A DNA stretch of 50,547 nt from Thiobacillus denitrificans (GTDB taxonomy: Bacteria; Pseudomonadota; Gammaproteobacteria; Burkholderiales; Thiobacillaceae): NCBI GenBank assembly GCA_020725005.1, contig DYFW01000005.1:1-50547 (forward strand). Reading direction: 5' to 3'. The notes beneath the pieces were generated by a model. The model did not search any database. It had not been told where the DNA came from and saw only the letters and a list, made by a program, of their open reading frames with translations. Numbering within the stretch: position 1 is the stretch's first letter; the number at the start of each line of letters is the position of its first letter. Position numbers and translations under genes: made by a program. Below, piece by piece: positions 7,618 through 50,547 of this stretch.

Positions 7618-7757
7618 CGGTTACACCTCTCTCACTAATATGCGCTTGGAGCATTATGCGTTCCGGGTAGCGCTTGGAAAATAGTTAATTGAGTCTATGC
7701 ATGCCGGGGCGTTCTGGCGGCGGGCACGCGTCTGGCAGCGGTCGGCCGGGGGGGGGC

Positions 7758-8615
7758 TTAACCGCCGCGCCCACGCTCCTCCCGCGCGAGTTCCCGCAGG
7801 CCCGCCAGCGCGACCGCCAGCGTCGCGCTGGGGCTGTCGCGTGGGAATACCATCCACGCCGGCAGTCGTAGCGTGGGGCTGTCGGGAATCTGCCACAGAC
7901 GCCCGGCGTCGAGGTACTGGCGCACCAGGCGCTGCGGGAAATAGCCGCTGCCGCCATAGGTGAGCAGTTGCTGCACGCCAAGCCAGCCGATGTTGGCGAC
8001 GAGCGCGGGCGGGCCGACTTCGGGGTGGTGGTCGCTGAAGAGGGCGTGGAATTCCGGCCCCCAGTCGATATGGATGTAGCCGGGATCGGGCCAGCCGCGC
8101 GCGAGGTCGCTGGTCACCAAGAGCAGGGTCTCGTCGAACAGCGCCTCGACGACAAGCCCGGGGCGCGAGGTGGGGGTGTACATCACGCCGATGTCGACGC
8201 TGCCTTCGATGAGGCCCTGCATGATGTCGGCCTCGAAGCCGATCTCCAGGCGCAGCGACACGTCCGGCGCCGCCTTGCGCATCCATGCCACCCAGTGCGG
8301 CAGGAAACCTTCCCACACCGCGATGCGGCCCGACAACGTGAGCACGTCGTGAAAACCCTGCGGCAGGCCGACGTCGTGGCGCGCCTGTTCGACCGTGCGC
8401 ACCAGGTGCTTGGCGTGGCGCAGGAAGCGTTTGCCCGCCGGGGTGAGTTCGGCGCCATTGCGGCCGCGCTGGAACAGGCGTGCGCCGAGCAGGGTTTCCA
8501 GATTGTGGATGCGCGCGCTCACCGTCGACTGCGTGACGTGCAGGCGGCTCGCGGCCGCGACGAAATTTCCGGTGGCGGCGACGGCGAGGAAGGTGCGGGC
8601 GAGTTCGGTGTCCAT
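7758..8615 (-). CDS. LysR-family transcriptional regulator
   Basis: A 285-residue LysR protein. The N-terminal winged helix-turn-helix reads LARTFLAVAATGNFVAAASR then LHVTQSTVSARIHNLE, and a periplasmic-binding-like effector domain follows (about residues 90-285). It is transcribed divergently from the DsrC-like gene across about 100 bases, the usual geometry for a LysR regulator and its target, and lies upstream of soxB in the same direction. A role in sulfur metabolism is an inference from these neighbours. An inverted repeat with a T-N11-A core at 8619-8635, directly before its start codon, may be its own binding site. Confidence 0.85.
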   Translation of the reverse strand: MDTELARTFLAVAATGNFVAAASRLHVTQSTVSARIHNLETLLGARLFQRGRNGAELTPAGKRFLRHAKHLVRTVEQARHDVGLPQGFHDVLTLSGRIAVWEGFLPHWVAWMRKAAPDVSLRLEIGFEADIMQGLIEGSVDIGVMYTPTSRPGLVVEALFDETLLLVTSDLARGWPDPGYIHIDWGPEFHALFSDHHPEVGPPALVANIGWLGVQQLLTYGGSGYFPQRLVRQYLDAGRLWQIPDSPTLRLPAWMVFPRDSPSATLAVALAGLRELAREERGRGG

Positions 8616-20553: not shown

Positions 20554-20569
20554 TGGCACGTCCCCTGCT
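20554..20569 (+). promoter_or_regulatory. Sigma-54-type (-24/-12) promoter of yfdX
   Basis: TGGCACG-N4-CTGCT, one mismatch from TGGCACG-N4-TTGCW, with GG and GC exactly ten bases apart. The expected start is near 20580, 38 bases before ATG 20618. Sigma-54 promoters need an NtrC-type activator, and such a gene follows at 23372. Confidence 0.7.
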
Positions 20570-38511: not shown

Positions 38512-38519
38512 GGTGTCTT

Positions 38520-39752
38520 TCAGCCCGACCAGAGGCTGTCCAGGTTATTGATGCCCCAGGTCGCCGCATCCTCGCGCCCGACGATTTTGTCGGATGCGCC
38601 GGGATGCGCCAGGTCGATCACTTCCGGCACGAGGTAGCTCCGCGACCGGGTTGAATAGAAAACCTTCACGCGCGGGGCCAGCAGCGACTTGCCCGATTGC
38701 TCGAGAACCACCGCGAGGCGGCCGGAGGCGAGCTTCACCAGCGAGCCGGTCGGATAGATGCCGATGCTTTTGACGAAGCCCTGGAATATTTTCTCGTCGA
38801 AGTGGCCGTTGCTCCACTCGGCCATCTTGCGGATCGACGCGGCCGGGTCCCAGCCCGCCTTGTAGGGGCGGTTCGACGTGATCGCGTCGTAGACGTCGCA
38901 CACCGCGCCCATCTTGGCGAAGCGCGTGATCTGCGCGTCGGTGAGCCGGTCCGGATAGCCGGTGCCGTCGACTTTCTCGTGGTGATGCAGGCAGACGTCG
39001 AGCACGATCTCGCTCGCGCTGCCGCCTTCGACCAGCAACCGGTGGCCTTCGACCGGGTGGTTCTTGATGATGCGGAATTCCTCGTCGGTGAGCTTGCCCG
39101 GCTTGTTCAGCACCTTCATCGGCATTTTCGCCTTGCCCAGGTCGTGCAGCAGGCCCGCCATGCCGGCCTCGCGCACGTCCGCCTCTTCCAGTCCGAGCTG
39201 GCGGGCGAGCGAGACCATCAGCGCGCACACCGCGACCGAATGCATGTAGGTGTAGTCGTCGGCGGTCTTCAGCCGCGCGAGGCTGATGAGCGCGCCCGGG
39301 TTGCGCATCACCGAGGACGAGATTTCCTCGACCAGCTCGCCGGCCGATTCCGCGCTCACCGCCTTGCCCATGCGCACTTCCTGGAACATCGAGACGACCG
39401 CGTGCCTGGCACGGGCGACGATCATCGCGGCGCGCTTGAGTTCCTCGTCCAGCGACGTCGCCTGGACGGCCGCGGCAGGCTGCGGCCGGGGGGCAGGGCG
39501 GTCGAGTTCGGCTTCCATCAGCATCGCGGTCACCGCCTGCTCGGTCTGCTGTGGGGGCGGCCCGGGCACGTCCAGGCCCTTGGCGGTGTCGATCCAGACT
39601 TCGGTGATGCCGCTGTCGATGATGCGGCGGATGTCGTCTGGATCCTTCAGGACGAACTTGCTGCGCCAGAACGGATGCTCCATCCACGAGCCGCACAGCT
39701 CGTCCAGATGCATTCCCAGTTGCAGGTCCTTGGCCTTGATTTTTTTGCGCAC
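38520..39752 (-). CDS. HD-GYP domain cyclic-di-GMP phosphodiesterase-like protein
   Basis: A protein of about 410 residues. An N-terminal DUF3391-like segment (KIKAKDLQLGMHLDELCGSW) precedes an HD-GYP domain with HSVAVCALMVSLARQ, LLHDLGKAKMP, the segment HHHEKVDGTGYP and DVYDAITSNRPYK. HD-GYP proteins of this form cut cyclic-di-GMP to GMP; all core motifs are present. A short beta-rich tail follows. I set the start at GTG 39752, where family-like sequence begins; no ATG is in frame near it, and upstream codons look like shadow of the methyltransferase region. Confidence 0.85.
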   Translation of the reverse strand: MRKKIKAKDLQLGMHLDELCGSWMEHPFWRSKFVLKDPDDIRRIIDSGITEVWIDTAKGLDVPGPPPQQTEQAVTAMLMEAELDRPAPRPQPAAAVQATSLDEELKRAAMIVARARHAVVSMFQEVRMGKAVSAESAGELVEEISSSVMRNPGALISLARLKTADDYTYMHSVAVCALMVSLARQLGLEEADVREAGMAGLLHDLGKAKMPMKVLNKPGKLTDEEFRIIKNHPVEGHRLLVEGGSASEIVLDVCLHHHEKVDGTGYPDRLTDAQITRFAKMGAVCDVYDAITSNRPYKAGWDPAASIRKMAEWSNGHFDEKIFQGFVKSIGIYPTGSLVKLASGRLAVVLEQSGKSLLAPRVKVFYSTRSRSYLVPEVIDLAHPGASDKIVGREDAATWGINNLDSLWSG

Positions 39753-39856
39753 GGTGTCATGTCGGATCAGGCGGGGTGCGTACAGTGTAAATGAATCATC
39801 CCGGCTGCACGCACCTGCCTCGATCCAAAGCAGGACACCGATTATCGCATCGTCGC

Positions 39857-40711
39857 TCAGGCGCGGGTCGCGGCAACCTCGAGATATTCGGCTTCGATCG
39901 CGGTCTCGCCTTCGCGTGCGTGGTTGTGCTCCGACCACAGCTGTTCCAGGTCGCTGCGCAGCGCGGCCTGCTGGTCCGGGTCGAGTGCGGCGAAGGCCCG
40001 ATTGGCCGGGCCGTAGTAGCTGCGGAAGAACTCGACGACCCCGGAGGGGGGAAACGGGTAGCGGATCGGGTAGCGCTGCCGCGTCAGTCGCAAGGTCTCC
40101 GTGCGCTCGCCCAGGCGTTCGCGCACGGTGGCCTCGTCGCCCCACAGGACGGGCGAGGGCATGCCGGTCGGCGGCGGGACGTGCCGGCCGATGGTATTGA
40201 ACATCTGGCCGATGAATCCGCCGGGCGTCCAGTTGCCCATGACGATGCGGCCGCCAGGGCGGCATACGCGCACGAGCTCGGCCGCCACCTGTTCAGGGCG
40301 GGGGGCGAACATGGCGCCGATCAGGCTGAACACGAGATCGAAGGCGGCGTCGTCATACGGGAGGTCCTCGGCATCGCCCTCCTCGAAGCGGATCGCCAGT
40401 CCTTCCGCCTGCGCGCGGGCCCTCGCCTGCGCGATCAGGTTGGGGGCGATGTCGACCCCCGTGACGGCGGCGCCCGCCCGTGCAGCCGGGAGGGCGAGCT
40501 GGCCCGCGCCGCAGGCGACATCGAGCACGCGCTCGCCCGGAGCGATCCGCAGGCGGGTAAAGAACTCCATTGCTCCCGGTTCGAGGTAGCGGGCGAAATG
40601 ACCGTAGTCGCCGGCCATCCACATCGCCTTCAGCCGTGACTTGAGCGCTTCCATTTCGGGCGAGAGGCTTGCGTCCCTCTCGTGGCGGCGGGGTGCAATC
40701 TGCATGTCCAT
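39857..40711 (-). CDS. SAM-dependent class I methyltransferase
   Basis: A 284-residue soluble methyltransferase. The SAM motif I is [20 protein letters not shown] near residue 62, followed by [12 protein letters not shown] and [11 protein letters not shown], then [14 protein letters not shown]. The substrate is unknown. It starts just downstream of the gene for the membrane/HMA-like protein on the same strand, three bases away, so both are likely on one transcript. Confidence 0.85.
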
Positions 40712-40714
40712 TTT

Positions 40715-40948
40715 TCACATCCCGATCAGTTGCGCATGCAGGCCGCGCTCACGGAAGGCGTGCAGGATGCCGGATGCGCGTGCGGCCGCCGAGTCGTAGA
40801 CGACCACCATCAAATGGTTCTGGTTGGGCCGCCGTCCCACCGAGATGACGCCTTGATCCCGGCGGATGTCCTGTTCAAGCTCGTCCAGGGTGGCGTCGTC
40901 GACGGTTTCGTTGATATGGACGACGACTTCGTTCAGCGGGGTGTTCAT
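40715..40948 (-). CDS. Possible separate 77-residue HMA-like protein from an internal start
   Basis: It begins MNTPLNEVVVHINETVDDAT at ATG 40948 with AGGAGAG about six bases upstream, a better ribosome site than many true genes in the window. The fold pattern is that of a small metal-transfer domain, but no CxxC is present. It lies in the same frame as the longer membrane protein gene, so both products are possible. Confidence 0.5.
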   Translation of the reverse strand: MNTPLNEVVVHINETVDDATLDELEQDIRRDQGVISVGRRPNQNHLMVVVYDSAAARASGILHAFRERGLHAQLIGM

Positions 40949-41398
40949 GATGTTCTCTCCTGGGTTGTGCGCGTGCTGCGAGCGCTCGAATGTTTCGGGA
41001 AGGCCCTGCATCACGCTGCCCCTGACCGGCGCAGAGAGGAAGGTCCTCCGCAACAGGCCGCCCGACAGGGGTTCGCGCCGGTTCCACGGCAGCAGCGAGA
41101 GACAGCGCGCGAGGGTGCAGTAGCCGAACAGCACCTGCGCCGGGGTGCCGACAGCGGGCAGCCAGAACAGCCAGTTCATGGGCGCCCACAGCGCGAGCAT
41201 CAGCATCGCCGTGTAGGCCAGACGCACCTGCACCGGAAATGCGCCGAAGCTGCCATGCCGCAGCCGGAAATGCACGACCTGGACGACGCTCAGCGCGGTG
41301 GCCAGGTAGAAGGCCTCGAACCGCCCGGCCAAGCCTGCGATCAGCAGCACCGACGTCACCGCCCAGTACCACCAGCTGATTTCACGGTAAAGCATCAT
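40715..41398 (-). CDS. Membrane protein fused in frame to an HMA-like C-terminal domain
   Basis: A 227-residue frame. Residues 1-125 contain about four membrane helices (SWWYWAVTSVLLIAGLAG, AYTAMLMLALWAPMNWLFWL). The last 77 residues (VVVHINETVDDATLDELEQD, then HLMVVVYDSAAARASGILHA) resemble a heavy-metal-associated fold without the metal cysteines. A strong ribosome site, AGGAGAG, lies before an internal ATG at 40948 exactly at the start of this second domain. It may be two proteins made from one frame, or a fusion. The N-terminal family is not recognised. It is divergent from an AraC gene. Confidence 0.7.
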   Translation of the reverse strand: MMLYREISWWYWAVTSVLLIAGLAGRFEAFYLATALSVVQVVHFRLRHGSFGAFPVQVRLAYTAMLMLALWAPMNWLFWLPAVGTPAQVLFGYCTLARCLSLLPWNRREPLSGGLLRRTFLSAPVRGSVMQGLPETFERSQHAHNPGENIMNTPLNEVVVHINETVDDATLDELEQDIRRDQGVISVGRRPNQNHLMVVVYDSAAARASGILHAFRERGLHAQLIGM

Positions 41399-41496
41399 GG
41401 TGCTTCCTCCCGAAGGTGTCTGGCTAGGCCAGTGCAGGTTTACGGCCTATCGTTAACGGGCCAGGTATCAGGCTAGCAACGCTGGAGACAGAGGCC

Positions 41497-42507
41497 ATGA
41501 CCGAAACGCAAGGAGTTATGCCCGAAACGCCGAACCCGAGCGCGCCGGACCTGCTGTCGGATCTGCTCGGCAGCATGCATCTTTCCGGCGTGGTGCTGTT
41601 CAGCGTGGTATTCCGCGAACCCTGGGCGCTGGTCACGCCCGAAGCCTGCCAGCTGCCGCGTCTGCTACCTTTCTTCACCGAACACATCATCCCGTTCCAT
41701 ATCGTGGCCGAGGGCGCCTGCTGGCTGGAGCTGAAGGACGGCGAGCGGGTCAGGCTGGAGGCCGGCGATGCCGTGCTGCTGCCTTACGGCGACACGCACG
41801 TCCTGGAGGGGCGCGATGGCGCCAAGCGGGTGCCGGTCGAACAACTGCTGCCGCCGCCCCCCTGGCCCGACGTGCTGCTGATCGAACACGGTGGCGCCGG
41901 CACGCGCACCCAGATCGTCTGCGGCTTCCTGCAGTGCGACGAACTTCTGTTCCATCCCCTGCTGCGCCATCTGCCCGCGTTGATGACGGTCAGCCCCGGC
42001 CGCACCCCGGTCGACGAGTGGCTCGCCGGCACCATCCGCCACACCGCCCGAGAGGCCACCCGGGCCGCCCCGGGCGGCCGTTCCATGCTGCCGCGCCTGG
42101 CCGAACTGATGTTCGTGGAAATTCTGCGCACGCACATGCAGTCCCTGTCGGCGGACGAGGTGGGCTGGTTCGCTGCCGCCAACGACCCGGTGGTGGGCAG
42201 CGCGCTGAAATGGCTGCACACGGCGCCGCTGGAAGACTGGAGCGTGGAGCGGCTGGCACGCCGGGTCGGGGTGTCGCGCACCGTGCTGGCTGGGCGCTTC
42301 AGGCATTTCCTCGACATGCCGCCCATGCGCTACCTGACGGTATGGCGCCTGCAGCTCGCGGCCCAGCACCTGAAGGCGACGAGCATGCCGCTGAAAGGCA
42401 TCGCCGACCAGGCCGGCTACGATTCCGAAGCGGCGTTCAGCCGCGCCTTCAAGCGCCATTTCGGCCTGCCGCCTGCCGGCTGGCGGCGCCGCCAGGCGCT
42501 GGACTGA
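41497..42507 (+). CDS. AraC-family regulator with cupin-type sensor domain
   Basis: A 336-residue regulator. The N-terminal part has a cupin-like strand set (PFHIVAEGACWLELKDGERV then LEAGDAVLLPYGDTHVLEG). The C-terminal double helix-turn-helix is of AraC type (WSVERLARRVGVSRTVLAGR, then GIADQAGYDSEAAFSRAFKR). It belongs to the group that often controls neighbouring dehydrogenase or metabolite genes. It is divergent from the membrane/HMA-like gene, which is a plausible target. The effector is unknown. Confidence 0.88.
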   Translation: MTETQGVMPETPNPSAPDLLSDLLGSMHLSGVVLFSVVFREPWALVTPEACQLPRLLPFFTEHIIPFHIVAEGACWLELKDGERVRLEAGDAVLLPYGDTHVLEGRDGAKRVPVEQLLPPPPWPDVLLIEHGGAGTRTQIVCGFLQCDELLFHPLLRHLPALMTVSPGRTPVDEWLAGTIRHTAREATRAAPGGRSMLPRLAELMFVEILRTHMQSLSADEVGWFAAANDPVVGSALKWLHTAPLEDWSVERLARRVGVSRTVLAGRFRHFLDMPPMRYLTVWRLQLAAQHLKATSMPLKGIADQAGYDSEAAFSRAFKRHFGLPPAGWRRRQALD

Positions 42508-42522
42508 CAGGGCGCCGGCGGC

Positions 42523-42539
42523 CGCACCAATTTGCGGCA
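42523..42539. promoter_or_regulatory. Weak NtrC-like site upstream of the ybiB promoter
   Basis: CGCACC-N5-GCGGCA with an AATTT core compares with NtrC consensus TGCACC-N5-GGTGCA. The left arm is good and the right is partial. It lies about 96 bases upstream of the -24 element at 42635. Confidence 0.4.
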
Positions 42540-42634
42540 TGCTCTCCCGCCCGTGCACTGCAACTGAGCGGGTCGCCGGTTGCGTATCGGCCAGCCCGCC
42601 GCCAATCCTTTGAATTCACGACACTGTGCGCTTC

Positions 42635-42650
42635 TGGCACAGACCCTGCA
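42635..42650 (+). promoter_or_regulatory. Sigma-54-type promoter of the 71-codon gene and ybiB
   Basis: TGGCACA-N4-CTGCA, one mismatch in the -12 element, with GG and GC exactly ten bases apart. The expected start is near 42661, just before the AAGGAG ribosome site (42663) and ATG 42674. The leader would be very short. Confidence 0.6.
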
Positions 42651-42673
42651 GGTGTATTGGGGAAGGAGTCAAC

Positions 42674-42889
42674 ATGTCTGTCGTTTCACCTGATTGCTGT
42701 CATGGGAGTGCCGGCCACGGAGTGCGGGTCGAAGTCGACGCCGGGAAGATGGTCCGGGCGCGCGACGAGCGCCCGCTTCGGCCTTGCCGCGCACTGGCGC
42801 GCTCGCATGTTCGTCTCTTGAAGCGGGTGCGTGGCTTGCGCGCTGCGCTCACCAACCGACGGGTTGCCGGCACAGGGGATGCGGCATGA
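42674..42889 (+). CDS. 71-residue protein of unknown function before ybiB
   Basis: It begins MSVVSPDCCHGSAGHGVRVE and is rich in arginine further on. AAGGAGTCAAC gives a strong ribosome site, and the stop overlaps the ybiB start as ATGA, so ribosomes probably pass from it to ybiB. I do not recognise a family, and the arginine-rich part looks poorly conserved-like. It could be a genuine small nitrogen-regulated protein or only a coupling leader. Confidence 0.5.
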   Translation: MSVVSPDCCHGSAGHGVRVEVDAGKMVRARDERPLRPCRALARSHVRLLKRVRGLRAALTNRRVAGTGDAA

Positions 42890-43851
42890 GTTACGCAACC
42901 CTGATACGGCAGATCGAAGCGGGCGAGGGCATGGGCTATCTCGATGCGCGCGCGCTGCTGGCGGCGCTGCTCGATGGCGGGGTGCCCGAACTGGAGACTG
43001 CGGCGTTCCTGGTGGCGTTGCATCAGCACGACCCGGGGGACGATGCCTGGCTGGGCATGCATGCGGCGCTGGCCGAACGCCTGCCGGATTTTTCCGCGCC
43101 GCATGGCCCGTTCCGCACCGTGGTGTTGCCCACCTATCACGGGGTGCACACACGTCCCCACCTCACCCCCTTGCTGGCGTTGCTGCTCAGAAACTTTGGT
43201 ATCCCGGTGCTGATCCACGGCGTGCTCGATGGCGGTGGCGGCACCGCGGCTGCGTATGTGCTGCGCGAACTGGGGGTGATGCCCTGCGGTTCGGTGGCGC
43301 AAGTCAATGCAGCGCTGCGTGATGACGGGCTGGCGTTTGCGCCGGTCGCTTTGCTGAACCCCGGACTGGCGAGTCTGCTGGCCTTGCGCTCGCGTCTCGG
43401 GGTTGACCACTTGGCGACACGGCTCGCAGTGTTGGTCGACCCCCTTGGCGACACCTCGCTGCGGGTGACGCCAGTGGCGGAAGCAACCGACCTCTCCGAC
43501 GTGACCCGGGTGCTGCAGGCACTGGGAGGGCATGCCCTGTTGCTGCATGGATGTGAAGGCGAGGCGTTCGCGGATCCGCTCAAGCGGCCGGACATGTTGC
43601 TGGTGCAGGAAGGGGAGGTGCAATGCGTGTACGAATCGCAATCGACGCCGACCCTGTCCGATGCGCTGCCGGCGGTCGATGCACGCTCCACCGGTGCCTG
43701 GACCGCCAGCGTGTTGCGCGAGCACCTGCCACTGCCGCTGCCAATTCGCAACCAGCTGGCGGTGTGCCTGTATGCGTCGGGTTATACGGACGATCTGAAC
43801 CAGGCGCGCGCGATCACCGCAATCAACGGTTTCGGGAAAGTGGCTGCGTAG
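42886..43851 (+). CDS. ybiB: YbiB/TrpD2-type protein (anthranilate phosphoribosyltransferase fold)
   Basis: A 321-residue protein of the glycosyl transferase family 3 fold. The segment VVLPTYHGVHTRPHLTPLLA, then GIPVLIHGVLDGGGGTAAAY and LRSRLGVDHLATRLAVLVDP match the YbiB/TrpD2 group, which has the TrpD fold but binds nucleic acid and lacks anthranilate activity in E. coli. Its position before nirB, with a similar sigma-54-type promoter, suggests co-regulation with nitrate assimilation. ATG 42886 overlaps the stop of the 71-codon gene. The exact role is unknown. Confidence 0.8.
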   Translation: MSYATLIRQIEAGEGMGYLDARALLAALLDGGVPELETAAFLVALHQHDPGDDAWLGMHAALAERLPDFSAPHGPFRTVVLPTYHGVHTRPHLTPLLALLLRNFGIPVLIHGVLDGGGGTAAAYVLRELGVMPCGSVAQVNAALRDDGLAFAPVALLNPGLASLLALRSRLGVDHLATRLAVLVDPLGDTSLRVTPVAEATDLSDVTRVLQALGGHALLLHGCEGEAFADPLKRPDMLLVQEGEVQCVYESQSTPTLSDALPAVDARSTGAWTASVLREHLPLPLPIRNQLAVCLYASGYTDDLNQARAITAINGFGKVAA

Positions 43852-43876
43852 CTCCGGTGCACGATAGAGATATCCG

Positions 43877-43891
43877 GCACCGACATGGTGC
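43877..43891. promoter_or_regulatory. NtrC binding site upstream of nirB
   Basis: GCACC-N5-GGTGC (part of GGCACCGACATGGTGCA) fits the NtrC consensus TGCACC-N5-GGTGCA at all inner positions. It lies about 77 bases upstream of the -24 element, a standard enhancer distance. A further half-site GGTGCAC is near 43856. Confidence 0.7.
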
Positions 43892-43967
43892 ATGACGAGT
43901 CGGCGGGCTTGGCGGGAGGATAAATAAACCCAATTCAAAACAATGAATTATAAAAGCTTTGCCAAGT

Positions 43968-43983
43968 TGGCACAGCGATTGCT
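43968..43983 (+). promoter_or_regulatory. Sigma-54 promoter of the nirBD-nas operon
   Basis: TGGCACA-N4-TTGCT, an exact match to the sigma-54 core TGGCAC-N5-TTGCW. The expected start is near 43994, 65 bases before ATG 44059. With the NtrC site upstream this predicts induction under nitrogen limitation. Confidence 0.85.
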
Positions 43984-44058
43984 TGGATAGTAAACATCAG
44001 ACCAGATGCAACGGCGTATCTCGGTCATCACTTTTGGTTTTTTGTGTGGAGTGGTGAA

Positions 44059-46530
44059 ATGGATATGAGCGTGCCCCGGGCATCCGGTCCCCGATTGAAA
44101 CTCGTCGTCGTCGGCAATGGCATGGCCGGCATGCGTACGCTGGAGGAACTGCTGAAGGCGGCCCCCGGCCTGTACGACGTCACCGTGTTCGGCGACGAGC
44201 CGCATCCCAACTACAACCGCATCATGCTGTCGCCGGTGCTGGCGGGCGAGCAGACGATCGAGCAGATCGTGCTCAACAGCCGCGACTGGTATGCCGAGAA
44301 CGGCATCACGCTCTTCGCCGGCAAGAAGGTGGTGAAGATCGATCGCCGGGCGCGCTGCGTCGAGGCGGACGACGGCACCCGCGCGCCCTACGACCGCCTC
44401 CTGCTCGCCACCGGGTCCAAGCCCTTCATCCTGCCGGTGCCTGGCGCCGACCTGCCCGGCGTGATCGGTTTCCGCGACATCGCCGACGTCGACGTGATGA
44501 TCCGCGCCGCCTCGCAATACCGGCACGCGGTCGTCATCGGCGGCGGTCTCCTGGGGCTGGAAGCGGCCAACGGCCTGAAGCTGCGCGGCATGGACGTCAC
44601 CGTCGTGCACATCGGCGCCTGGCTGCTCGAGCGGCAGCTCGACGAGCCGGCGGCGCGCCTGCTGCAGAAGAGCCTGGAGGAGAAGGGGCTCCGGTTCCTG
44701 CTGCAGACGCACACCGCGGAACTGGTGCGCGCCGACACTGGTCGCGTCGGCGCGGTGAAGTTCAAGGATGGCGGGACCATCCCGGCCGACCTCGTGGTGA
44801 TGGCGGTCGGCATCCGCCCCAACACCGAACTCGCCGAATCGGCCGGCCTGCACTGCCATCGCGGCGTCGTCGTCAACGACACCATGCAGACCTTCGACCC
44901 CCGCATCTATGCGGTCGGCGAGTGCGTCAACCATCGCGGCGTCGCCTACGGGCTGGTCGCGCCGCTGTTCGAGCAGGCCAAGGTGTGCGCCAACCATCTC
45001 GCCGAGCACGGCGTCGCGCGCTACCAGGGCTCGATGACCTCGACCAAGCTCAAGGTCACCGGCATCGACCTGTTTTCCGCCGGCGATTTCGCCGGCGCGG
45101 AAGGCACCGAGACCCTGGTGTTCTCCGACGCCGCGGCGGGCAGCTACAAAAAGCTGGTGCTGAAGGACAACCGCCTGGTCGGCGCCTGCCTCTATGGCGA
45201 CACGCTCGACGGCGCCTGGTATTTCGACCTGCTGCGCGAAGGCACCGACGTGTCGCAGTTCCGCAAGACCCTGCTGTTCGGCCAGCACCACGTCGGCGAT
45301 TCCGGCCACGGCCCCGCCGAGCGCGTCGCCGCCTTGCCGGACACGGCCGAGATCTGCGGCTGCAACGGGGTGAAGAAGGGCGACATCGTGGGCGCCATCT
45401 GCAGCAAGAAGCTCTTCACCCTCGACGAGGTGCGCGCCCACACCAAGGCCTCGGCTTCGTGCGGTTCGTGCACCGGACTGGTCGAGGCGCTCCTGGCCCA
45501 CACCGTGGGCGGCGACTACTCTGCCGCGCCGTCGAAGAAGCCGCTGTGCGGCTGCACCGACCACAGCCACGACGAGGTGCGCGCCGCCATCGTCGCGCAG
45601 CAACTGAAAACCCTGCCGGAAGTCATGCGCCACCTCGACTGGAAGACTGCCGACGGCTGCAGCAAGTGCCGTCCCGCGCTCAATTACTACCTCCTGTGCG
45701 CGTGGCCGACCGAGTACCGGGACGACGCGCAGTCGCGCTACATCAACGAGCGCGCCCACGGCAACATCCAGAAGGACGGCACGTTCTCGGTGGTGCCGCG
45801 CATGTGGGGCGGGCTGACCAATCCGAAGGAACTGCGCGCGATCGCTGACGTCGCCGAAAAGTTCAAGGTGCCCGAGATGAAGGTCACCGGCGGGCAGCGC
45901 ATCGACCTCTTCGGCGTGAAGAAGGAAGACCTGCCGGCGATGTGGGCCGATTTGTCTGCTGCAGGCTTCGTTTCCGGCCACGCCTACGGCAAGGCGCTGC
46001 GCACGGTGAAGACCTGCGTCGGCAGCCAGTGGTGCCGTTTTGGTACCCAGGACTCGACGGGCTTGGGCGTGAAACTGGAAAAAATGACCTGGGGCTCGTG
46101 GATGCCGCACAAGTTCAAGCTCGCGGTGTCCGGGTGCCCCAGGAACTGCGCCGAGGCGACGATCAAGGATTTCGGCGTGGTGTGCGTCGACTCCGGCTAC
46201 GAATTGCACGTCGGCGGCAACGGCGGCATCAAGGTGCGCGTCACCGATCTTTTGTGCAAGGTGGAGACCGAGGCGGAAGTGCTCGAATACTGCGCCGCCT
46301 TCACCCAGCTGTACCGCGAAGAGGCGCACTACCTCGAACGCACCGCGCCGTGGGTCGAGCGCGTGGGCCTGGCGCACGTCAAGGCGAAGGTCGTCGTCGA
46401 CGCGGCCAACCGCAAGGCGCTCGCCGAGCGTTTCCGTATTTCGCAGCAGACCGCGCAGATCGACCCGTGGAAGGCGCGTGCCGAAGGCGAGGCGCGCCAC
46501 GAATTCACCCCGATCACCGCCCTGGTATGA
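44059..46530 (+). CDS. nirB: Assimilatory nitrite reductase NAD(P)H large subunit
   Basis: A subunit of about 823 residues. In order: FAD fold (VVVGNGMAGMRTLEELLKA), NAD fold (AVVIGGGLLGLEAANGLKLR), and two BFD-like [2Fe-2S] segments (ICGCNGVKKGDIVGAICS and ADGCSKCRP). A ferredoxin-like half domain and the sirohaem/[4Fe-4S] domain follow, with WCRFGTQDSTGLG and SGCPRNCAEATIKDFGVVCV. It reduces nitrite to ammonium with NADH together with NirD in the cytoplasm. ATG 44059 has GGAG eight bases upstream; ATG 44065 is two codons on. First gene of the operon. Confidence 0.95.
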   Translation: MDMSVPRASGPRLKLVVVGNGMAGMRTLEELLKAAPGLYDVTVFGDEPHPNYNRIMLSPVLAGEQTIEQIVLNSRDWYAENGITLFAGKKVVKIDRRARCVEADDGTRAPYDRLLLATGSKPFILPVPGADLPGVIGFRDIADVDVMIRAASQYRHAVVIGGGLLGLEAANGLKLRGMDVTVVHIGAWLLERQLDEPAARLLQKSLEEKGLRFLLQTHTAELVRADTGRVGAVKFKDGGTIPADLVVMAVGIRPNTELAESAGLHCHRGVVVNDTMQTFDPRIYAVGECVNHRGVAYGLVAPLFEQAKVCANHLAEHGVARYQGSMTSTKLKVTGIDLFSAGDFAGAEGTETLVFSDAAAGSYKKLVLKDNRLVGACLYGDTLDGAWYFDLLREGTDVSQFRKTLLFGQHHVGDSGHGPAERVAALPDTAEICGCNGVKKGDIVGAICSKKLFTLDEVRAHTKASASCGSCTGLVEALLAHTVGGDYSAAPSKKPLCGCTDHSHDEVRAAIVAQQLKTLPEVMRHLDWKTADGCSKCRPALNYYLLCAWPTEYRDDAQSRYINERAHGNIQKDGTFSVVPRMWGGLTNPKELRAIADVAEKFKVPEMKVTGGQRIDLFGVKKEDLPAMWADLSAAGFVSGHAYGKALRTVKTCVGSQWCRFGTQDSTGLGVKLEKMTWGSWMPHKFKLAVSGCPRNCAEATIKDFGVVCVDSGYELHVGGNGGIKVRVTDLLCKVETEAEVLEYCAAFTQLYREEAHYLERTAPWVERVGLAHVKAKVVVDAANRKALAERFRISQQTAQIDPWKARAEGEARHEFTPITALV

Positions 46531-46547
46531 CACTCCGAGGAACTGAC

Positions 46548-46892
46548 ATGAAGATGAACGAAAACTGGATTCCGATCGGCCGCCTGGACGACATTCCGCG
46601 CCAGGGCGCCCGGGTCGTCGTCACCTCTGCCGGCGATATCGCCGTGTTCCGCACCGCCGACGACGAGGTGTTCGCGCTTGCCGACCGCTGTCCGCACAAG
46701 GGCGGCCCGCTGTCGCAGGGCATCGTGCACGGCAAGCGCGTGGCCTGCCCGCTGCACGACTGGAAGATCAACCTCGACACCGGCCTTGCCGCCGCGCCCG
46801 ACGAAGGCTGCGCCGCGCGCTACCCGGTGCGGGTGGCGGACGGGCAGGTAAGCCTGTCGCTGATGCCGGAACAAGGCTGCCCGGGCCGCTGA
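46548..46892 (+). CDS. nirD: Nitrite reductase small subunit NirD
   Basis: A 114-residue Rieske-type protein with the cluster ligands DRCPHKGG and VACPLHDWKI. It partners NirB. ATG 46548 is preferred because GAGGA lies six to seven bases upstream and the reading then starts MKMNENWIPIGRLDD; an ATG at 46527 overlapping the nirB stop would add seven residues. Confidence 0.93.
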   Translation: MKMNENWIPIGRLDDIPRQGARVVVTSAGDIAVFRTADDEVFALADRCPHKGGPLSQGIVHGKRVACPLHDWKINLDTGLAAAPDEGCAARYPVRVADGQVSLSLMPEQGCPGR

Positions 46893-46926
46893 TCGCCGCA
46901 ACCCGGCCCCATCGAAAGGAATTCCC

Positions 46927-49131
46927 ATGCTGTTCGGACGTACCAGGAAGAACCCCGTCAAGATCGCCGACAAGGGCGTCGTGGAATGGAAATACGCCGC
47001 CTGCGGCTACTGCTCGACCGGCTGCTCGATCGAGGTCGGCCTCAACGCCGAAGGCAAGCCCGTGGCCTCGCGCGGCGTGGCCGACGCCGACGTCAACCGC
47101 GGCAAGCTGTGCCTGAAAGGCATTTTCGAGCACGAGCTGTTCGATTCTGCCGGGCGCGGCACGCAGCCGCTGATGCGGCCGCGCTGGCACGAGCCGTGGC
47201 AACCCGCCAGTTGGGACGCCGCGCTCGACAAACTCGCCGACGAGATCCGTCGCATCCAGGCGAAATACGGCCGGGATGCCTTCGCTATCATTTCCACCGG
47301 GCAGATGCTCACCGAGGAGTTCTACACGCTCGGCAAGCTCACGCGCGGACTCATCGGCACCAACAACTACGACGGCAACACCACGCTGTGCATGGCGTCG
47401 GCGGTGTCGGGCTACAAGCGCAGCTTCGGCTCCGACGGCCCGCCCGGCTGCTATGAGGATTTCGAGCACACCGACTGCCTGATCGCCTGGGGCTCCAACC
47501 TGCCCGAGCAGCACCCGATCATCTACTGGCGCCTGAAAGAAGCGCAGGAGAAGCGCGGCTTCACGCTCATCGTGGTCGATCCGCGCGTGACCATGCTGGC
47601 GCAGAACGCGCACCTGCACTTGCCGATCACGCCGGGCACCGACGTCGTGCTGATGAACGCGATGATGCACGTGATCTTCAAGGAGAACCTGCACGACCAG
47701 CGCTACATCGACGCCAACACCACCGGCGTCGAGGCGTTGCGCGCCGAGGTCGAAAAATATGATCCGGTCACCGCGTCCCGGATATGCGGCATCGACGAGG
47801 ACACCATCCGCGTCGTCGCGCGCACCTTCGCCAGGTCGAAGGCGGCGATGCAGATCTGGACCATGGGCATCAACCAGTCGACGCACGGCTCCGACGGCGT
47901 GGTCGGCATCAACAACCTCGCGCTCATCACCGGCAACATCGGCAAGCCGGGCGGCACCTCGCTGTCGATCACCGGCCAGTGCAACGCCATGGGCACGCGC
48001 GAATGGTCGTCGTGCTCGGGCCTGCCCAACTACCGCTACCTGGAGAACCCCGCGCACCGCGAGGAGGTGGCGAAATTCTGGAACGTCGATCCGGAATTCT
48101 TCCCGAAGCAGCGGGGCATGTACCAGACCGATATCTACCAGGCGATGGAGGCCGGGCAGATCAAGGGGTTGTGGCTGATCGCCACCAACCCGTTGTCCTC
48201 GCTGCCCAATACCGCGCGCGTTCGCCGCGCCATGGAGCAGCTCGAGTTCTGCTGCGTGCAGGATTGCTACGTGGACACCGAGAGCGCGCAGTACGCCCAC
48301 GTCTACCTGCCCGCCGGCACCTGGGCCGAGAAGGACGGCGTGATGACGAACACCGAGCGCCGCATCAACCGCGTCAAGCCCGTCACGCCGCCGCCGGGCG
48401 AGGCCAAGCCCGATCTGTGGATCTTCAACCGGGTGGCCGAACGCTTCAACCGCGACGGCAGGGTGAAATTCCCCGAATCCGCTGCCGAGATCTTCCAGGA
48501 AATGGGTGAACTGTCGCGTGGCCGGCTGGCCGACATCTCCGGCATGGATCACGCGCTGATCGAGCGGCACCGCGGCATCCAGTGGCCGTACACGGCGGCG
48601 CAGCGCGAGCGCGGCGAGGCGCCGCCCAAGGGCGGCAAGCGCCTCTACACCGAAGACGGGACATTCTCCTACCCGGATGGACGCGCCCGGCTCATCCCGC
48701 TGCCCTTCATCGACAACAACGAGGTGCCGGACGAGATGTTCCCCATCTGGCTCAACACCGGACGCCTCATCGAGCACTGGCACGGCCGCACCAAGACCGG
48801 GAAGATCGGCAACAACAACAAGTACAGCCCGATCCCCTTCATCGAGATCAACCCCGCGCTTGCCGAGGAACTCGGCATCATGCGCGGCGAATACGTGCGC
48901 ATGGTGTCGCGCCGGGGCGACGCCATCGCCATGGCGCAACCCACCCAGCGGGTGCCCAAGAACATGGTGTTCCTGCCCTTCCACTTCCACGACTGCGCCA
49001 ACCGGCTGACGCTCGGCCTGCTCGACCCGCATTCGCGGCAGCCGGCGTACAAGCAGTCGGCCATCCGCATCGAGAAGATCGCCGATCAGGTCGCGGCGGC
49101 GAAGCTGTCGATGGAAATGCGCAAGTTTTGA
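46927..49131 (+). CDS. Molybdopterin nitrate reductase, NasA-like catalytic subunit
   Basis: A 734-residue bis-MGD enzyme. The N-terminal [4Fe-4S] motif is CGYCSTGCSIEVG with a fourth Cys in RGKLCLKG. Molybdopterin-domain segments include AIISTGQMLTEEFYTLGKLT, GYKRSFGSDGPPGCYEDFE and WTMGINQSTHGSDGVVGINN, and the C-terminal MGD domain has WLNTGRLIEHWHGRTKTGKI. There is no signal peptide, so it is cytoplasmic. It is shorter than typical NasA (about 850-900) because it lacks the C-terminal [2Fe-2S] domain. Its place after nirBD argues for nitrate as substrate. A four-cluster Fe-S/DmsC partner follows, so electrons likely come through that. Confidence 0.87.
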   Translation: MLFGRTRKNPVKIADKGVVEWKYAACGYCSTGCSIEVGLNAEGKPVASRGVADADVNRGKLCLKGIFEHELFDSAGRGTQPLMRPRWHEPWQPASWDAALDKLADEIRRIQAKYGRDAFAIISTGQMLTEEFYTLGKLTRGLIGTNNYDGNTTLCMASAVSGYKRSFGSDGPPGCYEDFEHTDCLIAWGSNLPEQHPIIYWRLKEAQEKRGFTLIVVDPRVTMLAQNAHLHLPITPGTDVVLMNAMMHVIFKENLHDQRYIDANTTGVEALRAEVEKYDPVTASRICGIDEDTIRVVARTFARSKAAMQIWTMGINQSTHGSDGVVGINNLALITGNIGKPGGTSLSITGQCNAMGTREWSSCSGLPNYRYLENPAHREEVAKFWNVDPEFFPKQRGMYQTDIYQAMEAGQIKGLWLIATNPLSSLPNTARVRRAMEQLEFCCVQDCYVDTESAQYAHVYLPAGTWAEKDGVMTNTERRINRVKPVTPPPGEAKPDLWIFNRVAERFNRDGRVKFPESAAEIFQEMGELSRGRLADISGMDHALIERHRGIQWPYTAAQRERGEAPPKGGKRLYTEDGTFSYPDGRARLIPLPFIDNNEVPDEMFPIWLNTGRLIEHWHGRTKTGKIGNNNKYSPIPFIEINPALAEELGIMRGEYVRMVSRRGDAIAMAQPTQRVPKNMVFLPFHFHDCANRLTLGLLDPHSRQPAYKQSAIRIEKIADQVAAAKLSMEMRKF

Positions 49132-49142
49132 GGAGCGAGATC

Positions 49143-50547
49143 ATGATCCAGAACCACAATCCGGTCGCCTACCATTGCGACAGCGAAGGCAGTGGCGGCC
49201 AATGCGGATGCCAGCCGAACCGGGTGCAGCCCACGCCGGCGGCATCCGTCTTCCCCTACCTGCGCGACGACGAACCGGCGTATGCCCGGCTCAACGATCC
49301 GCAGACGAAAACCGTCAACCGCTACGGCACGCCCATCGAAACCGTGCCCGAAGGGCATGCGCTGCGCGGACACAGCCTCAACATCAACGGCAACCCCGAG
49401 ATCGGCGCCAACCCCAACCGCTACAAGCAGCACGGCTTCTTCTTCAACGCCGACAACTGCATCGCCTGCCACGCCTGCGAGGCGGCCTGCTCGGAAAAGA
49501 ACGACAATCCGGCGCACATCGCCTTCCGTTCGGTCGGTTTCGTCGAGGGCGGCACCTATCCGGACACCCGCCGCCTCAACATCTCGATGGCGTGCAACCA
49601 CTGCGACAACCCGGTCTGCCTCAAGGGCTGCCCGACGCGCGCCTATACCAAGTTCGCCGAATACGGCGCAGTGCTGCAGGACCCGGACATCTGCTTCGGC
49701 TGCGGCTACTGCACCTGGGTCTGCCCCTACAACGCGCCGCAGCTCGACCCGGTCAAGGGCCAGGTCTCGAAATGCAACATGTGCGTCGACCGGCTCGAGG
49801 TGGGACTGAAGCCTGCCTGCGTCGCGGCCTGCCTCGGCAAGGCGCTCGATTTCGGCGTGATCGAGAACATCCCCGAGGGACGCACCCAGGCGAAGGCCGA
49901 GATCCCCGGCTTTCCGCGCACCGACATCACCCACCCCAACATCCGCTTCGAGCAGACGCGCAGCCTCCAGCGCGACATGGTGCGGCTCGACAGCGCGCCG
50001 CTGAAATACCACCGCGACGACGCCAGCGGCCGCTACCGGCCGGTGGTCGACCCCAAGCACGGCTTCACGCGGCAGTGGAACCTGAAAAAACTGCTCGGCT
50101 CGCACGAGAACGCGCACATCGCCTTCACGCTGTCGGTGCAGGCGGTGATGGGCGCCTTCCTGCTGCTGTCGGTCGGTGCCTGGCTGGGTTCGGAGGCGGT
50201 TGCCGATTTCATCGGCAGCGCCGCCTATCTGCCCACCGTCGCGGCGATGATCGCGCTCATGGCCTTCGGCCTCATCAAGCTCAACCTGCACCTGGGCAAA
50301 CCGCTGCGTTTCTACCGCGGCTTCAACAACTGGAGGCTGTCGCCGGTCAGCCGCGAGATCGCCGGCGTGTCGCTGTTCTTCGGCGGCCTGTCCGGCTACG
50401 GATTCTTCGCGCTGCTCCACGATCTGCCCTTCGCCGGCGCGTTGCAGACCGCCAGCGCCGTGGCCGCGCTCGTCGGGCTTGCCGTCGGCGGCTACTACAT
50501 GATCAAGCTCTACCGCATTCCGGCGCGGCCGTTCTGGGACCACTGGC
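49143..50547 (+). CDS. Fe-S/DmsC-like membrane anchor fusion, 3' end outside window
   Basis: At least 468 residues, open to the window end. Residues 1-30 carry three extra cysteines (YHCDSEGSGGQCGCQ). About 110-240 holds four ferredoxin-type cysteine sets (CIACHACEAAC, CNHCDNPVCLKGC, CFGCGYCTWVC, and CNMC...CVAAC), as in DmsB/NrfC. From about 325 there is a DmsC-like membrane domain with four visible helices (HIAFTLSVQAVMGAFLLLSV, YYMIKLYRIPARPFWDHW at the edge). It should pass electrons from quinol to the nitrate reductase encoded just before it. It starts 11 bases after the nasA stop behind GAGGAG. Without the end, the full helix count is unknown. Confidence 0.85.
   Translation, partial: MIQNHNPVAYHCDSEGSGGQCGCQPNRVQPTPAASVFPYLRDDEPAYARLNDPQTKTVNRYGTPIETVPEGHALRGHSLNINGNPEIGANPNRYKQHGFFFNADNCIACHACEAACSEKNDNPAHIAFRSVGFVEGGTYPDTRRLNISMACNHCDNPVCLKGCPTRAYTKFAEYGAVLQDPDICFGCGYCTWVCPYNAPQLDPVKGQVSKCNMCVDRLEVGLKPACVAACLGKALDFGVIENIPEGRTQAKAEIPGFPRTDITHPNIRFEQTRSLQRDMVRLDSAPLKYHRDDASGRYRPVVDPKHGFTRQWNLKKLLGSHENAHIAFTLSVQAVMGAFLLLSVGAWLGSEAVADFIGSAAYLPTVAAMIALMAFGLIKLNLHLGKPLRFYRGFNNWRLSPVSREIAGVSLFFGGLSGYGFFALLHDLPFAGALQTASAVAALVGLAVGGYYMIKLYRIPARPFWDHW

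Follow-up and report, generated by a model that had tools for sequence, protein, structure and literature searches.

Nitrate assimilation is taught as drawing its electrons on NADH or ferredoxin, and a locus of Thiobacillus denitrificans raises the question of whether an assimilatory nitrate reductase may be fed by quinol at the membrane instead. The window (the whole stretch of 50,547 nucleotides that was analysed, corresponding to an entire contig, C173) was inspected for open reading frames over positions 38000-50547 (Table 1). A sequence-only reading had described nirB, nirD and a NasA-like subunit followed by a DmsBC-like fusion gene, and NCBIfam and Pfam domain matches confirm this arrangement; that the catalytic subunit, here NasA2, has no [2Fe-2S] tail agrees with the Pfam scan, which shows no Fer2_BFD domain. 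The fusion protein is referred to as BC. The data set out below make it probable that NasA2-BC is a membrane-bound, cytoplasm-facing quinol:nitrate oxidoreductase for nitrogen assimilation, where we infer from sequence that nitrate is the substrate, quinol the donor, the two proteins form a complex and the role is assimilatory.

Table 1. Features at the nirB-nirD-nasA2-BC locus and the evidence for each
Feature	Coordinates	Strand	Basis
Relic of canonical ([2Fe-2S]-tailed) nasA	42520..42768	+	blastn/tblastn to same-genus loci
Sigma54-type (-24/-12) promoter core in former nasA leader	42635..42649	+	TGGCAC-N5-CTGC
YbiB-like protein	42886..43851	+	NCBIfam NF006005, 216.8 bits (cut-off 185); start inferred from conserved start
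Second sigma54-type core, TGGCACAGCGATTGC	43968..43982	+	76 nt upstream of nirB start
nirB, nitrite reductase large subunit	44044..46530	+	TIGR02374, 967 bits (cut-off 578)
nirD, nitrite reductase small subunit, Rieske type	46548..46892	+	TIGR02378, 103 bits (cut-off 74.65)
NasA2, 734-aa molybdopterin oxidoreductase, proposed nitrate reductase catalytic subunit	46927..49131	+	Pfam Fe4S4, Molybdopterin and MGD-binding domains
BC, DmsB-like four-[4Fe-4S] domain fused to DmsC/NrfD-like anchor	49143..50546	+	Fer4 domains and DmsC PF04976

The proposed membrane partner and its predicted orientation

The BC gene of the window is truncated by the contig end (50547) after 468 codons, whereas its relatives at 80 loci measure 588-645 residues between the aligned start and the stop. 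A search of the same assembly for the missing end, run without a positive control, gave no match. Contig C311 was considered for this role and rejected, as it shares a 55-bp overlap with contig C230, whose SoeC-like gene runs on into it; these two contigs carry SoeABC-like genes of the same genome, named by resemblance.

Conservation in BC was read from 41 of the 87 rows at hand (80 named loci, six relatives and the window), the named rows being trimmed at match ends. All 41 keep the 16 cluster cysteines for four [4Fe-4S] clusters, aligned with E. coli DmsB, and the equivalents of His65 and Glu87 of the E. coli DmsC quinol site are equally invariant (41/41). Replacement of His65 in E. coli DmsC blocks quinol oxidation (PMC8076601). 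In the structural model the complete membrane part, which is cut short in the window, adopts an eight-helix NrfD-like fold that carries the DmsC quinol residues, with a VIA Z of 23.6 to the NrfD-like subunit of alternative complex III and of 17.8 to PsrC; the Fe-S half of the model is of low confidence (pLDDT about 30).

The absence of a Tat leader from both proteins had also been noted, with a cytoplasm-facing complex as the expected consequence, and the sequences of relatives agree with both. As aligned, none of 34 NasA2 and none of 41 BC sequences has a Tat motif, while the same scan detected the controls (DmsA, two NapA proteins and a NapA-like protein of the same genome); after the frames had been extended upstream by as many as 80 residues, one of 62 NasA2 and one of 80 BC sequences gave a match, both ahead of the conserved start methionine. 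In BC, lysines and arginines average 10.3 on the Fe-S side versus 0.6 on the opposite side, with the same direction in 40/40 sequences (2 versus 4 in E. coli DmsC). Since Tat signals are absent and this pattern follows the positive-inside rule, the complex is predicted to lie in the cytoplasm.

Lineage and active site of NasA2

Of the 63 named loci whose NasA2 is nearly full-length, 27 were used; with the window and six relatives they supplied the 34 NasA2 rows of the quick tree and the active-site comparison. The bootstrap tree used 12 of these 34 and omitted the genome's own SoeA-like protein and the Streptomyces, Deinococcus and Burkholderia rows; in the quick tree, which includes the omitted rows, Streptomyces and Deinococcus could not be placed, and two changes were needed for the Nas label. 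Both trees were built without Bacillus subtilis NasC, cyanobacterial NarB and arsenite oxidase. Formate dehydrogenases (Fdh), NasA2, Nap and Nas each form a single group with 100% bootstrap, and Nap and Nas are united at 92/82, which places NasA2 beside Nap plus Nas if Fdh is taken as the outgroup. NasA2 is thus, by the sequences compared, a separate lineage outside Nas and Nap and apart from the formate dehydrogenases. The earlier label "NasA-like" stands as regards the nitrate-reductase active-site residues and has to be corrected as regards descent, the protein being a sister of NasA/NapA and not NasA proper.

Several observations might suggest a quinone-reducing formate dehydrogenase, or another formate enzyme, that lies beside nirBD by chance. 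The best NCBIfam match of NasA2 is the Fdh-alpha family TIGR01591 (549.6 bits, below the 666.25 cut-off), an FdhF from a CO2 reductase is its top PDB match by sequence, and the best PDB chain for BC is a four-cluster beta subunit as in FdhN-type enzymes, only beta-subunit and ferredoxin-type chains being found among the similar chains listed. This reading is nevertheless highly improbable, because three canonical nitrate reductases give the same sub-cut-off Fdh-alpha match (553, 584 and 478 bits, against 805 for Pantoea FdhF), and because the tree position and the gene neighbourhood of NasA2 also speak against it. So does the active site: the molybdenum-ligand Cys is followed by Met in 34/34 NasA2, 11/12 readable canonical Nas and 4/4 Nap rows, instead of the Cys/Sec-His of 4/5 Fdh rows; the nitrate-reductase residues (Cys-Met and the Asn at -4) are present in 34/34 NasA2, and, over the ten rows shown, NasA2 resembles nitrate reductases and not Fdh in its TGQ-x-NAMG-x-RE segment. 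By fold the two candidates tie (NapA Z 33.6, Fdh Z 32.9). NasA2 belongs neither to the DmsA lineage (dmsA_ynfE, 151 bits; cut-off 778) nor to the NarG type (TIGR01580, 47 bits; cut-off 1084), and lies below the curated NasC and NasA cut-offs (475 and 469 bits versus 1100 and 1000), as does the canonical NasA of the same-genus locus L045.

The substrate of a molybdoenzyme is not readable from sequence with certainty, and NasA2 has Thr two residues before the molybdenum-ligand Cys in 34/34 rows, a position that is Arg in every other row read; the natural substrate could then be another oxyanion or an N- or S-oxide (chlorate, selenate and others), with nitrate linked to the system by neighbourhood only. 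We regard this as barely credible, given the position of NasA2 beside NapA and NasA, an operon shared with nirBD and NarK-type transporters, and the fact that canonical nasA has given way to it in the window.

Fate of the canonical nasA and search for another donor

The relic upstream of the operon comprises the promoter and leader and the first ~36 codons of nasA (relic frame 42674-42889), with two of the three N-terminal cluster cysteines replaced and the remainder of the gene absent. By blastn it matches two same-genus loci, L045 (70% over 253 bp, E 8e-25) and L046 (73% over 147 bp), and gives no match to L048, whose stretch does not include the start of nasA; tblastn gives 51% over 37 aa. 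No canonical NasA was found elsewhere in the genome of the window. As far as these alignments tell, all that this genome retains of canonical nasA is thus a relic heading the NasA2 operon. In other genomes of the genus, the YbiB-like gene that follows the relic also belongs to this cluster. The NasA2-bearing relatives within the genus (G032, G047 and G034) also retain canonical NasA, which argues that the two are not simply interchangeable. The genome of the window also encodes Nap-like and Nar-like enzymes, with a NarG-like protein on contig C171.

No NasB/NasC-type reductase had been noted in the window, and, beyond the open reading frames read at 38000-50547, a search of the whole genome for BFD [2Fe-2S] domains agrees with this for NasB of the BFD type. 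The search gave four hits: NirB accounts for two, and the others fall in a NifU-like protein adjoining a NifS-like gene and in an 80-aa frame, so that no BFD-type NasB is seen. NasA2 might still reduce nitrate with electrons from NirB, ferredoxin or flavodoxin, BC being a separate sink or anchor: the FAD and BFD [2Fe-2S] domains of NirB could in principle serve another subunit, and in Paracoccus both NasC and NasB are described as fed from NADH (PMC6618116). Such an arrangement is very unlikely, however, as the canonical NasA scanned has a [2Fe-2S] tail that NasA2 lacks, and BC, with its full set of DmsB clusters and its quinol residues, adjoins NasA2 in 62 of 63 checkable loci.

Promoters, distribution and proposed physiological role

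The core TGGCAC-N5-CTGC, which is of the sigma54 (-24/-12) type, is identical in the old nasA leaders of L045 and L046; a third strict core in the window, at 20554, is unconnected with the NasA2 operon. In 43 of the 80 loci, for which nirB starts were extrapolated from alignments, a looser core (TGGYAY-N5-YTGC), expected in 3.6% of random stretches, lies no more than 400 bp ahead of nirB in 31, with 27 on the nirB strand; it is absent from the other 12, half of them methanotrophs.

The search for BC relatives gave 572 at E <= 1e-3, distant DmsB-like proteins included, of which the best 80 were kept (61-100% identity). Of the 368 other genomes sampled within the class, 59 (about one in six) have BC, and its carriers include tubeworm symbionts, sulfur oxidisers and methanotrophs, among them Sulfuricella sp. 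T08 and Methylomonas methanica NCIMB 11130, whose records are not labelled as metagenome bins. Upstream DNA was sufficient at 47 loci; nirB is present in 41 of these and without a match in six, and a NarK-type transporter is found in 26. Transporters of this type therefore lie near the system in relatives. For 50 of the 80 loci, a set with many metagenome bins that may be incomplete, the genomes were surveyed for NasA-type proteins, and 38 have no clear one besides NasA2 among the matches listed; in two of eight genomes, one a Cycloclasticus, NasA2 is the only PF00384 (molybdopterin oxidoreductase) protein found. Joint import of the whole nirB-nirD-NasA2-BC block was also considered, and is unsupported by the identities of NirD and of part of NirB.

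To our knowledge, the quinol-linked nitrate reductases described so far are respiratory, and the same enzyme might mainly be dissimilatory, acting like NarGHI and, with NirBD, in nitrate respiration or ammonification at low oxygen. In Beggiatoaceae, NirBD is described as working in assimilatory as well as dissimilatory pathways (PMC4914600). A mainly dissimilatory role is nonetheless unlikely in view of the sigma54-type cores ahead of nirB, the association with NarK-type transporters and NirBD, the occurrence in methanotrophs and in a Cycloclasticus with NasA2 as its only PF00384 protein, and the occurrence in genomes that already have Nap- and Nar-like enzymes, such as that of the window.

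In the assimilatory reading, which we prefer, the operon would be expressed from sigma54-type promoters, as expected for nitrogen-regulated assimilation, and NasA2 and BC would form one membrane-bound complex facing the cytoplasm. BC would take two electrons from quinol at its DmsC-type membrane site and pass them across the four [4Fe-4S] clusters of its N-terminal half and the [4Fe-4S] cluster of NasA2 to Mo-bisMGD, where nitrate would be reduced to nitrite; NirBD of the same operon would then reduce nitrite to ammonium with NADH. NasA2-BC would in this way replace or back up the canonical NasA fed by NADH or ferredoxin.

It is conceivable, if on balance doubtful, that NasA2 constitutes a third Mo-bisMGD nitrate reductase lineage next to NapA and NasA, one that turns nitrogen assimilation into a respiratory step conserving energy, with quinol oxidised at a DmsC-type anchor, nitrate reduced in the cytoplasm and the membrane possibly charged as by NarGHI; NADH would be spared in chemolithoautotrophs and methanotrophs reliant on costly reverse electron flow, and the genes may move between bacteria with nirB. 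A quinol-linked nitrate assimilation, as in the reading preferred above, would alter the energetics of growing on nitrate where NADH is expensive, and tie nitrogen uptake to respiration in many sulfur- and methane-oxidising bacteria.

Comparison with known systems

No description or biochemistry of this complex was found in searches of full-text literature, which covered few subscription journals, and it may bear another name there. According to a 2020 phylogeny (PMC7331816), four-cluster and membrane-anchor subunits accompany none of the members of the Fdh/NasA/AioA/NapA clade, a generalisation that NasA2-BC, as read here, contradicts. NasA2 shares with canonical NasA, NasC and NarB the cytoplasmic location, the lack of a Tat signal, the N-terminal [4Fe-4S] cluster, the Mo-Cys-Met signature and an operon with nirBD and a nitrate transporter. 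It differs from canonical NasA in being a separate lineage, at about 38-41% identity to those compared, without a C-terminal [2Fe-2S] domain, and its proposed partner is a dedicated DmsBC-type protein, in contrast to the NADH or ferredoxin donor of NasA, NasC and NarB.

BC resembles DmsABC of E. coli and other CISM enzymes in its four-cluster B part, its eight-helix DmsC-type anchor and the His65/Glu87 equivalents; NasA2-BC differs from DmsABC in the fusion of B and C, in a catalytic subunit from the NasA/NapA/Fdh side, in facing the cytoplasm and in having no Tat signal. The sulfite dehydrogenase SoeABC, which faces the cytoplasm, is likewise a molybdoenzyme with DmsB- and DmsC-like subunits; unlike NasA2-BC, it has another catalytic lineage and separate B and C genes, and it oxidises sulfite. 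SoeC is listed with His65/Glu87 in PMC8076601. The reaction proposed for NasA2-BC, from quinol to nitrate at a cytoplasmic catalytic site, is that of NarGHI. The latter differs in its NarG lineage, its haem b anchor NarI and its respiratory operon. In structural comparison NasA2 is closest to monomeric NapA of D. desulfuricans (Z 33.6 at 32% identity, a tie with Fdh), which has the same active-site residues; unlike NasA2, NapA is periplasmic and has different electron donors.

Gene content of the locus

Contig C173 is the entire window (50,547 bp) and belongs to a genome of 3.26 Mb in 388 contigs; its end truncates the reading frame of the last gene. The sequence-only reading had described, at the right end, nirB, nirD, a NasA-like subunit lacking a [2Fe-2S] tail and a DmsBC-like fusion, without a NasB/NasC-type reductase, and reading frames and domain scans bear out this gene content. 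The catalytic subunit (734 aa, hereafter NasA2) contains only Fe4S4, Molybdopterin and MGD-binding domains, whereas the canonical NasA of a same-genus genome carries an additional C-terminal Fer2_BFD domain. No BFD-type NasB partner is seen in the whole genome, also in agreement with that reading, since its four Fer2_BFD places are accounted for by NirB (two), a NifU-like protein and an 80-aa frame. The fusion protein (hereafter BC) unites a DmsB-like part for four [4Fe-4S] clusters with a DmsC-like membrane anchor. The window's BC has an N-terminal extension with extra Cys, absent from five relatives aligned, which may reflect either a misassigned start codon or an additional metal site. The AraC-family regulator upstream has a cupin domain and is nearest to the reactive-chlorine regulator RclR, under the RclR cut-off.

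Features of the window, with the operon at its right end in gene order, and of compared loci
Feature	Location	Strand	Remark
Strict sigma54-type core	20554	+	TGGCACGTCCCCTGC; far from the nirB-BC operon
AraC-family regulator	41497-42507		just upstream of the nasA relic
Canonical nasA relic	42520-42889		head of operon; leader and sigma54-type core retained
Strict sigma54-type core	42635		
YbiB-like gene		+	
Strict sigma54-type core	43968		76 nt before nirB
nirB		+	
nirD		+	
NasA2	46927-49131	+	
BC	49143-50546	+	
BC N-terminal extension	49143-49250	+	HCDSEGSGGQCGCQ
119-aa protein, L045 (same genus)	7351-7710		between BC and nirD
119-aa protein, L046 (same genus)	8218-8577		between BC and nirD
PhzF-like gene, L111 (Cycloclasticus)	6853-7773		between nirD and NasA2

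Identity of the catalytic subunit

The top NCBIfam match of NasA2 is formate dehydrogenase alpha, below cut-off; this match is not informative, because three canonical nitrate reductases behave in the same way and a true formate dehydrogenase exceeds the cut-off. Met comes directly after the Mo-ligand Cys in all 34 NasA2 rows aligned, 11 of the 12 readable canonical rows and all four Nap rows; at this place formate dehydrogenase rows have His (four of five) or Gln (one). Asn at position -4 (34/34) is as in nitrate reductases, and the TGQ-x-NAMG-x-RE segment matches the nitrate reductase pattern (ten rows displayed). Two positions ahead of the Mo-ligand Cys (Cys155 in the window protein), at residue 153, all 34 NasA2 rows have Thr, and all other rows read have Arg. 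In a carefully built tree (37 rows), formate dehydrogenases, NasA2, NapA and canonical NasA came out as separate groups, each with 100% bootstrap. Support for joining NapA with NasA is 92/82, which makes NasA2 the sister of this pair when the tree is rooted on formate dehydrogenases. A larger quick tree also recovered the NasA2 group and left Streptomyces and Deinococcus rows unplaced. By predicted fold, NasA2 is tied between Desulfovibrio desulfuricans NapA and formate dehydrogenases (Z 33.6 and 32.9, respectively). The label NasA-like stands for the active-site residues and fails for the placement, which is outside NasA; neither does NasA2 group with formate dehydrogenase, a non-nitrate enzyme. 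Its substrate is very probably nitrate.

Electron donor and side of the membrane

BC has a counterpart for each of the 16 cysteines of E. coli DmsB; these, and the residues aligned with His65 and Glu87 of DmsC, are invariant in 41 of 41 rows. In passages of a review, replacement of DmsC His65 is said to have stopped quinol oxidation, and both residues are listed for DmsC and SoeC (PMC8076601). The membrane half of BC was modelled as eight helices, with pLDDT mostly >90, and compares with the NrfD-like subunit of alternative complex III at Z 23.6 and with PsrC at Z 17.8; the Fe-S half is poorly modelled. Quinol would in all likelihood be the electron donor.

A Tat motif was found in none of 34 NasA2 and 41 BC rows, read from the aligned start, and the same pattern detects E. 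coli DmsA, two NapA and the NapA-like protein of the window's genome. With the upstream open frame added (up to 80 residues), matches appeared in 1/62 NasA2 and 1/80 BC, both before the conserved start Met. In the anchor loops of BC, K+R averages 10.3 on the Fe-S side (without the tail) and 0.6 on the opposite side, a bias with the same direction in 40/40 complete rows. In E. coli DmsC, which has its Fe-S partner in the periplasm, the loops have 2 on the Fe-S side and 4 on the other. Lack of a Tat motif and charge bias together indicate that the complex should almost certainly face the cytoplasm, as had been proposed.

Probable assimilatory role and history of the cluster

Strict sigma54-type cores number three in the window, against a background of 0.15 per window in shuffled sequence. 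Looser cores within 400 bp upstream of nirB occur in 31 of 43 loci, 27 of them on the nirB strand (background, 3.6% of 2150 random stretches taken from these loci); of the 12 loci without one, six are from methanotrophs. In 38 of 50 carrier genomes, many of them bins that may be incomplete, no clear NasA-type protein besides NasA2 was seen among the matches listed; of the others, 11 encode a clear canonical NasA and one gives a borderline match. The cultured carrier Sulfuricella sp. T08 is one in which no canonical NasA was seen, and it has a Nap-like protein. NasA2 is the sole PF00384 protein in two of eight genomes searched, a Cycloclasticus and a Pseudomonadales bin that may be incomplete; as a control, PF00384 does pick up the NarG-like protein of the window's genome. 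We take the latter, on contig C171, to be NarG-like from its N-terminus and neighbours, and MFS genes precede it. The same genome also encodes a NapA-like Tat protein, and its contigs C230 and C311, overlapping by 55 bp inside a SoeC-like gene, split a SoeABC-like operon.

Canonical nasA is the first gene of the cluster in three genomes of the same genus and in one further relative. In the window only a relic remains, with about 36 codons and two of three N-terminal cluster cysteines replaced; its promoter core is identical to that of L045 and L046, and the remainder of nasA is missing, ybiB coming next. Canonical NasA was not found elsewhere in the genome, which leaves NasA2-BC as the sole candidate seen there for an assimilatory-type nitrate reductase. 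Window NasA2 shares 87-90% identity with its counterparts in Sulfuricella, Thiobacillus and Rhodocyclales loci versus 67% with those of the three same-genus genomes, and trees agree. NirB fits this pattern partly, sharing 80-84% with loci L065, L092 and L093, 69-70% with the same genus and 67% with two Rhodocyclales loci, and ybiB and the leader are of the same-genus type. It is likely, from these identities, that NasA2-BC, perhaps with nirB, was imported behind the old nas promoter. Import of nirB-nirD-NasA2-BC as a single block is not supported by NirD, which shares 81% with L065, 71% with Sulfuricella, 61-64% with the same genus and 56-58% with L092 and L093.

From its genomic context NasA2-BC is read as assimilatory, a role that it would probably have; that cytoplasmic side, nitrate, quinol and assimilatory role all hold jointly seems reasonably likely.

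Distribution and comparison with known systems

BC orthologues were found in six of 99 other relatives searched (59-78% identity) and, at E <= 1e-100, in 59 of 368 other genomes sampled throughout the class (55-77%). In a named collection, the 80 best loci (61-100% identity to the BC of Sulfuricella) belong to Sulfuricella, Thiobacillus, Rhodocyclales, Sedimenticola, Thiotrichaceae, Chromatiaceae, tubeworm endosymbionts, Methylomonas, Methylobacter, Crenothrix, Cycloclasticus and others. Where 2.3 kb or more lies ahead of BC (63 loci), NasA2 immediately precedes it in 62, and coordinates give the same order in the remaining one (L076). Where this stretch reaches 7.5 kb or more (47 loci), nirB lies on the same strand in 41, nirD is matched in 32, a NarK-type transporter is present in 26 and a PP2C-protein kinase fusion in 23, neighbour families being determined on example loci. 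Presumably, this order resembles the transporter-kinase-nirB-nirD-nitrate reductase order of the Pseudomonas nas cluster. The 119-aa protein of two same-genus loci has two hydrophobic stretches and no Pfam match (L045 copy scanned), and in the Cycloclasticus locus L111 a MoxR-type ATPase gene directly follows BC.

Two plasmids carry other arrangements. In Deinococcus (NZ_CP026517.1) a 4Fe-4S protein, a Rieske protein and DUF6755 come after a NasA/NapA-like enzyme, with an MFS gene adjoining; this may be a further quinol-linked nitrate reductase, built differently. In Hymenobacter (NZ_CP095062.1) the C-terminal part of a 1171-aa nitrate reductase matches the N-terminal half of NirB, and this enzyme is perhaps a self-contained, NADH-fed assimilatory nitrate reductase.

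No description of a NasA2-BC-type complex was found in the full-text literature searched. Mention is made of nasA, nirBD or assimilatory nitrate reduction in passages on Thiomargarita (PMC4914600), Venteria (PMC5728499) and Endoriftia (PMC7787665, PMC9796809), which describe no such complex. The Paracoccus assimilatory enzyme is NADH-fed, according to a passage in PMC6618116, and one in Wells et al. 2020 (PMC7331816) states that the Fdh/NasA-NasC/AioA/NapA clade has no member with canonical four-cluster or membrane-anchor subunits. With E. coli DmsB/DmsC, BC shares the cluster cysteines and both quinol-site equivalents; NasA2-BC is a new combination of known parts.
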